DNA from: Kordiimonas sp. SCSIO 12603
GTDB taxonomy: Bacteria; Pseudomonadota; Alphaproteobacteria; Sphingomonadales; Kordiimonadaceae
Length of the DNA: 64,000 bases
Direction of reading: 5' to 3'
Assembly: GCF_024398035.1 (NCBI RefSeq)
Contig: NZ_CP073748.1
Coordinates: 2,331,520-2,395,519 of the forward strand
Positions 44,715-45,397 of this stretch are shown piece by piece (within the stretch, counting starts at the first letter, position 1; every line of letters begins with the position of its first letter). A program made the position numbers and the translations under genes. Under the pieces are notes generated by a model, which saw nothing but the letters and a program-made list of their open reading frames with translations, was not told the origin of the DNA and did not search any database.

Positions 44715-45269
44715 CTAATGACTGGTAGAGCAATTTGGATCTTCACAGCAGCTGTGGTTGTGTGAATTTTGTTTCTGAGCTTTTACCATCTTTTTAATAA
44801 GCCGATCTTTTTTCATTTTGGATAAATGGTCCAGATAACTTTTTCCATCCAAGTAATCCATTTCATGTTGGATGACTGTGGCCAGCCAGCCTTCAGCTTT
44901 CATGCTCCGTTCAGAACCTTCTTCATCAAGATACTCTACTTCAACAGCATCAGGCCTGCTGATTTCCGCAGAAATGCCGGGAAAACAGAGAGAGGCTTCT
45001 TCTTGTTTTACAAGATTATCAGACTTCCAAGTAATCTCCGGGTTCACCATCGCAATCGGGTTTTTGCTGCCATCTTCCTGCAGATCAATCACGATGATAC
45101 GTTTGAATATACCAACCATATTAGCCCCAATTCCAATACCGCGGTATTCATATAGGCTTTCAAACATATCATTAATATCTGATCTGACCGTATCATCTAC
45201 CACGCCTACATGAACTGCTTTCTTCCGAAGCTCTGGATCTGTTCCGAAAAATAACTGACGTACTGGCAT
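44715..45269 (-). CDS. Degenerate peptide deformylase-like protein
   Basis: A 184-residue homologue of peptide deformylase, which normally removes N-formyl groups from new proteins. All three catalytic motifs are altered: GIGIGANMVG replaces the GxGxAAxQ motif (Gln to Met51); EASLCFPG replaces EGCLSxPG, so the metal-binding Cys is Ser93 and a Cys sits two residues later at 95; and HEMDY replaces HExDH, so the second metal His is Tyr139. The C-terminal tail is rich in Cys and His (Cys174, 175, 180; His170, 172, 184). It is unlikely to be an ordinary deformylase. The start at 45269 has GAGAG upstream; ATG 45284 is possible. Confidence 0.88.
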   Translation of the reverse strand: MPVRQLFFGTDPELRKKAVHVGVVDDTVRSDINDMFESLYEYRGIGIGANMVGIFKRIIVIDLQEDGSKNPIAMVNPEITWKSDNLVKQEEASLCFPGISAEISRPDAVEVEYLDEEGSERSMKAEGWLATVIQHEMDYLDGKSYLDHLSKMKKDRLIKKMVKAQKQNSHNHSCCEDPNCSTSH

Positions 45270-45397
45270 TGGTAGCTCTCTCATGGGTTTCGATAAATTT
45301 TCGATTTTTATAATCGTTTTTATTATGGATTTCGAGCTAGATATTAAATGAAATTAACATCATACTTCCTCCAAGGTCAGATAAGGGAGCATTTATC

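Follow-up and report, generated by a model that had tools for sequence, protein, structure and literature searches.

An old alphaproteobacterial peptide deformylase paralogue with an altered metal site and a conserved, predicted ribosome-docking helix

Results

In addition to an intact peptide deformylase (PDF) gene, Kordiimonas sp. SCSIO 12603 possesses a PDF paralogue, encoded on the minus strand of the window (the whole stretch of 64,000 nucleotides that was analysed). Judged from its sequence and its relatives, this paralogue may be an old alphaproteobacterial PDF that has lost its deformylase site and would now dock at the ribosome as a pseudoenzyme, a reading that we place a little above even chances. 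Its metal site has undergone one fixed set of changes while the predicted docking helix is retained, so that it probably takes part, in a non-enzymatic way, in the processing of new proteins at the ribosome exit.

The longest open reading frame (ORF) of the paralogue lies at 44715..45284 (minus strand), begins with an ATG at 45284 and codes for 189 amino acids. The in-frame Met6 at 45269 (minus strand) is probably the true start, because its column matches the start of E. coli Def and the sequence AGAGAG is found just 5' of it; the original prediction, in which the gene extended to 45269, thus had the likelier start. A Met is present in this column in 38 of 50 paralogue rows, and as row starts had been picked by script as a nearby Met, this count is consistent with Met6 and not independent of it. 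The protein is a PDF homologue (PF01327, 147.2 bits versus a cut-off of 22.8), and its closest named copy is that of K. laminariae (97% identity). It also scores above the cut-offs of the NCBI peptide deformylase models TIGR00079 and NF001159, so that annotation as a functional enzyme is likely, which is a warning against score-based annotation, as these cut-offs are passed though the catalytic residues are gone. Two antisense ORFs inside the paralogue (window positions 44826-45155 and 44872-45213, plus strand, 109 and 113 aa) are most likely chance frames.

All three motifs of catalytic PDFs are changed. Motif I reads GIGIGANMV (45114..45140, minus strand; canonical GxGxAAxQV), so that GANM replaces AAxQ, and M56 of the long ORF, the Met51 of the original prediction when counted from Met6, occupies the position of E. 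coli Q50. Motif II reads EEASLCFP (44979..45002, minus strand; canonical EEGCLSxP), which means that instead of EGCLS with its Cys ligand there is EASLC, with S98 at the position of ligand C90 and C100 at that of S92. Motif III reads QHEMDYLDG (44844..44870, minus strand; canonical QHExDHLxG); in place of the two-His motif HExxH it has the predicted HExDY form, HEMDY, in which the first His and the Glu are retained (H140/E141) and the second His, ligand H136, has become Y144. In E. coli numbering, the changes are Q50M, C90S, and H136Y, with H132 and E133 unchanged, and by alignment two of the three metal ligands are lost, as had been claimed. An exchange of Cys and Ser in motif II had also been described (Ser93/Cys95 counted from Met6, equal to S98/C100), and it holds literally for the window protein, but across the family only the change from Cys to Ser is fixed, whereas at the second position 29 of the 50 paralogue rows have Cys and 21 have Ser.

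An AlphaFold2 model obtained from a 43-row alignment of the window's own and fetched loci had a mean pLDDT of 91.3, with a weak N-terminus and tail. It superimposed on E. coli Fe-PDF (1xen) with a Z-score of 27.2 and 1.2 A over 165 residues, Foldseek matched it to 1ix1 with an E-value of 6.4e-19, and all listed structure matches were PDFs. This confident model predicts a complete PDF fold for the paralogue. The packing of Met56, Ser98, and Tyr144 that is proposed below was deduced from the alignment.

The Kordiimonas genome (one contig, 3.85 Mb) yielded two PF01327 matches, the paralogue and an intact def at 505 kb with the motifs GIGLAAIQ, EGCLS, and QHEIDH. The latter is located directly upstream of an ORF that we take, from its sequence, to be fmt. 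A search for a second, intact def, usually situated beside fmt, had been suggested; such a gene is present, and the paralogue is not the only def gene of this genome.

Relatives were drawn from a scan of a species-genome collection (58 loci), which relies on exact short query peptides such as VIQHEMDY and so is confined to close relatives, and from 118 related genomes. The fetched loci supplied 142 PDF-like rows. We discarded L002, a second retrieval of the window copy, together with 9 rows whose first 150 residues duplicated those of another row; with the addition of E. coli Def and of the window protein, 134 rows were aligned. Fifty of these carry M50/S90/Y136, 73 carry Q50/C90/H132/E133/H136, 11 from Rhodobacterales carry S90/Q133, and no mixed rows occur. 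As M50/S90/Y136 define the first group, their presence in 50/50 rows is by construction; H132 and E133, which had no part in that definition, are likewise retained in 50/50 rows. After removal of columns 50, 90, 92, 132, 133, 135, and 136, a tree from a quick search without bootstrap (101 of 134 rows: all 50 and all 11, and 40 of the 73 canonical ones) placed the 50 paralogues on one branch (SH-aLRT 99) and the 11 Rhodobacterales rows on another (SH-aLRT 100), among Rhodobacterales defs. The changed motifs are thus conserved in orthologues forming one clade, and these orthologues do not show the normal motifs that a sequencing or strain-specific defect would have left in them; the M50/S90/Y136 changes are not a strain defect, as judged from these rows. 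Further positions near the old site in sequence have switched as well: V/I/L93 has become F/Y and C129 has become V/I in 50/50 paralogues, L125 is replaced by an aromatic residue in 47/50, and G95 is found in 47/50.

Conservation around the old site is uneven. Mean entropy is higher in the paralogues than in PDFs at positions 43-50 (0.85 versus 0.39) and 88-93 (0.55 versus 0.27), which are thus freer, whereas segment 125-136 is equally conserved (0.56 versus 0.65). The last value, together with the invariant H132 and E133, counts against a pseudoenzyme and may leave room for other chemistry. The paralogue might still be a deformylase or another amidohydrolase that works on formyl-peptides or some other substrate, either with an alternative metal or through Ser90-His132-Glu133-Tyr136 without any metal, and that perhaps serves when metal is limiting or under oxidative stress. 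In line with this, the invariant H132/E133 stand beside fixed S90/Y136, and G45, E88, and R102 do not vary in the paralogue rows either. However, two of three ligands and the Gln of motif I are replaced, positions 43-50 and 88-93 vary more than in PDFs, and Ser and Tyr would be weak metal ligands, so that we consider such an enzyme unlikely, though worth keeping in mind. The available part of one study reports activity for motif-altered type 3 PDFs of T. brucei, which speaks against a dead enzyme, and suggests that type 3 PDFs could use other cofactors under oxidative stress (PMC12690207).

A profile built from 27 family members was run on the 118 relatives, and 40 of them gave a match of at least 226.7 bits, every other match reaching at most 201.5. 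All 40 carriers also have a second copy in the lower, canonical score range; motifs were read directly in 33 of the 40 carriers and the other 7 were assigned by score. The paralogue occurs in 17 of 19 Kordiimonas genomes, the two without it being 76% complete, in 7 of 10 genomes from the rest of the window's family, and in 2 and 14 genomes of two further families; some relatives with complete genomes, such as G019, lack it. Of the 58 loci from the species scan, 26 were of the M50/S90/Y136 kind, all in records titled alphaproteobacteria, and the carriers include Kordiimonas, Sneathiella, Emcibacteraceae, and some uncultured lineages, which in the drawn tree are the earliest to diverge. In a phylum draw, the profile exceeded 226 bits in 3 of 398 genomes, all from the window's family, and the next 27 loci had canonical motifs (25 read by script, 2 by eye). 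In a class draw, a DNA pattern for QHE[MI] plus Asp/Glu plus Tyr, which is narrow and misses HELDY and HEADY and whose reversed control also matched at least 6 genomes, was found in 9 of 385 genomes, of which 6 (own genome included) contained the paralogue, 1 was unrelated and 2 had no matching frame. From these data, the paralogue is an old gene of alphaproteobacteria with a patchy distribution. It is also present, near the base of the clade, in metagenome bins titled 'Rickettsia typhi' (L047, L049), names that are probably mislabels.

Patchiness and rate could point to a slowly decaying duplicate that has no selected function, as 78 of 118 relatives lack a copy at the family score, many of them in families having none, and as the paralogue evolves faster than def (dN higher than that of def in 10/10 pairs; e.g., 62% versus 92% identity). 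However, simple Nei-Gojobori counts gave a dN/dS of 0.056 for the comparison with the K. laminariae copy and of 0.049, 0.087, 0.090, 0.097, and 0.181 for five further pairs with finite dS, two of which are rough with dS near 3; 4 of 10 pairs were saturated. The paralogue is under purifying selection in the measurable pairs (dN/dS 0.05-0.18). With new residues fixed in one clade that spans several named groups and docking residues kept, decay was already a disfavoured reading and appears to us barely probable.

The immediate neighbours of the paralogue lie on the opposite strand. When 50 loci were compared, no neighbour was constant across the clade; genes that we assume from their sequences to encode an M28-like peptidase (17 loci), rpsI (15), and rplM (12) recur, always on the opposite strand, in loci of the window's family or its near relatives. 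Six loci of Emcibacteraceae/family f8 have another set of genes in common, one of which lies on the same strand 0.7-2 kb away. As no neighbour is constant over the clade, no partner is indicated and the context gives no function. Near the gene, one promoter-like and one terminator-like site were detected, both on the plus strand, compared with shuffle means of 2.2 and 0.8, and upstream of the gene the sequence differs so little from that of K. laminariae that the comparison is uninformative. An origin from phages or plasmids was also considered and rejected, because no M50/S90/Y136 copy was present among 46 viral-contig loci (34 parsed as Q/C/H, 5 misread at motif II by the regular expression, 7 unparsed). 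Plasmid and phage collections, where matches were judged by identity and not by motif, gave matches below 60% identity only, the best among the 8 listed from each being 42.6% and 38.5%.

These observations bear on a possible role as a decoy for natural PDF inhibitors or a factor giving resistance to them, in which the paralogue would bind the inhibitor or displace it from PDF. Hydroxamate PDF inhibitors bind through the metal and the paralogue has lost metal ligands, no neighbour is constant in the clade, and among the matches listed none on plasmids or phages exceeds 60% identity. On these grounds a decoy is highly improbable, although an accessory PDF of Vibrio cholerae is stated, in the accessible part of the source, to lower actinonin susceptibility (PMC12690207).

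The model predicts a C-terminal helix of the type 1B PDF kind at residues 156-177 (44754..44819, minus strand). In the alignment, M157, K158, R161, K165, K168, and K171 of the paralogue correspond to the E. coli contacts L149, K150, R153, K157, K160, and R163. The sources, so far as they are available, state that L149, K150, R153, and K157 of E. coli Def bind uL22 and K160 and R163 bind 23S rRNA (PMC12690207), and that PDF docks by this helix at a site overlapping that of methionine aminopeptidase (MAP), with which it competes (PMC8712518). The predicted dock was scored as kept when at least 3 of the 4 positions 150, 157, 160, and 163 held basic residues. This applied to 49 of 50 paralogues, the exception (L123) being cut by a contig end, to 62 of 63 canonical copies and to 11 of 11 dead-looking Rhodobacterales copies, versus 0 of 9 accessory copies whose catalytic motifs are intact, these nine being of two kinds only (4 from the window's order, 5 from Rhodobacterales) and grouped after the alignment had been viewed. 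Position 153 is basic in 16 of 50 paralogues versus 3 of 63 canonical copies. When residue identity is considered, the mean entropy over the six contacts is 1.18 in paralogues versus 0.80 in canonical copies, the variation residing mainly at 149 and 153. In this sample, which comprises two lineages and few independent events, spares with intact motifs thus seem to have lost the dock whereas those with lost motifs seem to have kept it.

The dead-looking Rhodobacterales copies, a second kind of such PDF, reside in def clusters (L073:5040-5585, L074:4500-5048, L080:5001-5543, and 8 further loci). They have S90, with loss of the Cys ligand, and Q133, with loss of the catalytic Glu, and keep Q50, H136, and the docking residues in 11/11 cases. 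Five of these loci contain another copy that has intact motifs and is devoid of the helix contacts. A second motif-intact PDF type devoid of docking residues occurs in L115, L118, and L120 (family f4) and in L116 (family f8), with the motifs WEGCLSVP or WEGCLSLP and HECDH or HEADH; two of these, when included in the tree, formed a very long branch.

The C-terminal tail of the window protein, QNSHNHSCCEDPNCSTSH (residues 172-189; 44718..44771, minus strand), contains the three Cys and three His noted before; its first residues are helical and the rest has low confidence in the model. Among the paralogues, 28 of 50 have at least four tail Cys plus His, compared with 1 of 73 canonical copies and 0 of 11 Rhodobacterales S90/Q133 rows, so that the tail is shared by part of the orthologues and the other 22 fall below this number. 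At least one tail Cys is found in 30 paralogues and none in 20. There are two recurring tail styles, HVHxxxC and CxDPxC combined with His, and no Cys/His tail was seen in the copies read from Sneathiella and f8. The CxDPxC tail pattern was detected at 11 places in the own genome, 10 of which were read, and outside the paralogue it occurred only in three chance-looking frames of 61-74 aa. HVHGP was detected at 19 places in 4 genomes, all of which were read, and Cys/His tails were seen only in its three paralogues, the other frames being scattered and chance-looking (HVHGP closes one of 107 aa and lies 48 residues before the end of one of 281 aa).

The original prediction had also offered a metal site rebuilt from Cys95 and the Cys/His tail, which would make the paralogue a new metalloenzyme or a chaperone for the PDF metal. 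The window protein has both elements, and tails with at least four Cys plus His are frequent in paralogues and rare in canonical copies. However, Cys95 is Ser in 21 of 50 paralogues, fewer than four tail Cys plus His are found in 22 of 50 and no tail Cys in 20 of 50, and the two features are not associated among the 50 paralogues (Fisher p 0.39). In addition, the tail is of low confidence in the model and the canonical PDFs L019 and L238 bear similar Cys/His tails, which means that the tail is not confined to ligand loss. The idea of a rebuilt site thus found no support and is very improbable. The tail rather appears to be an optional add-on, likely to bind metal, and no part of a rebuilt catalytic site, as far as the aligned rows indicate. 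Canonical defs of family f5 (L005, L007, L008, L009, L013, L015, L016, L026, L029, and L031) display a Cys/His-rich insertion, e.g. CNHDGHYHHHYP, in the loop after about E. coli residue 63, and metal-binding add-ons seem to recur on alphaproteobacterial PDFs.

Discussion

One option of the original prediction, in which the enzyme is dead and serves in binding near the ribosome, fits with the intact def, the clade-marking changes, and the kept basic contacts, although this role, and its exact form as a brake or as a holder of N-termini, is what we infer from these features. In such a pseudoenzyme, Tyr136 would fill the space of the lost metal, with Met50 and Ser90 packed around Tyr136, and we propose that with the old site filled in this way no catalytic metal would be bound. 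The paralogue would dock by its C-terminal helix at the tunnel exit, a place common to PDF and MAP. Once docked, it may lower the access of PDF and MAP and so act as a brake on N-terminal processing, or alternatively it may hold the emerging N-terminus and not cleave it. In some lineages, the disordered Cys/His tail beside the docking helix may add an optional capacity for metal or redox binding.

A wider reading, which is tentative and which we would not expect to hold as a whole, joins both dead-looking kinds. Alphaproteobacteria might have made ribosome-docking pseudo-deformylases at least twice (M50/S90/Y136 and Rhodobacterales S90/Q133), keeping the dock without catalysis, while catalytic spares drop the dock. 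Together they would form an unrecognised layer of control over N-terminal processing that competes with PDF and MAP or shields selected formyl-Met N-termini, with the Cys/His tail as a metal or redox switch in Kordiimonas.

Accessory PDFs with altered motifs are described, in the available part of one source, as common and open in their role, and the reason for the def clusters of Rhodobacterales is called elusive (PMC12690207). Our literature search returned no paper joining deformylase with Kordiimonas or peptide deformylase with pseudoenzyme. The kind of protein is thus known, and the M50/S90/Y136 clade and the contrast between dock and catalysis were not found in the literature searched. 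Because the clade is defined, its signature fixed, and its docking helix retained, and because the source genera are cultured and not known to be harmful, the putative ribosome role of a dead deformylase becomes directly testable.

In comparison with type 1B PDF, represented by E. coli Def, the paralogue shares the fold, the C-terminal docking helix, NP, E88, R102, and the Q131-H132-E133 positions, but it lacks Q50, C90, and H136, and some paralogues add a Cys/His tail. Type 3 PDFs, which comprise the accessory PDFs of S. aureus and S. pneumoniae as well as archaeal and trypanosomatid ones, are reported to be weakly active or inactive in those parts of the sources that are available (PMC12690207, PMC5591237). 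Like them, the paralogue has substituted catalytic motifs, and type 3 PDFs too are often accessory; unlike them, the paralogues fall among alphaproteobacterial PDFs, in a tree made without type 3 references, and have the triple signature with H132/E133 kept. The copy from the Rhodobacterales def clusters (EEASPNLP, QHQIDH) resembles the paralogue in that the Cys ligand is replaced by Ser, in its dead-looking state and in its docking residues (11/11), and differs in that Q50 and H136 are kept and E133 is replaced by Gln; its origin is most likely independent, because it forms a separate branch (SH-aLRT 100) grouped with Rhodobacterales defs. Finally, the accessory PDFs of Vibrio and integrons (Def2) are, as far as the accessible text of the source goes, also second PDF copies, with a docking helix partly unlike that of E. 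coli, but in contrast to the paralogue their catalytic motifs are kept and those tested were active (PMC12690207).
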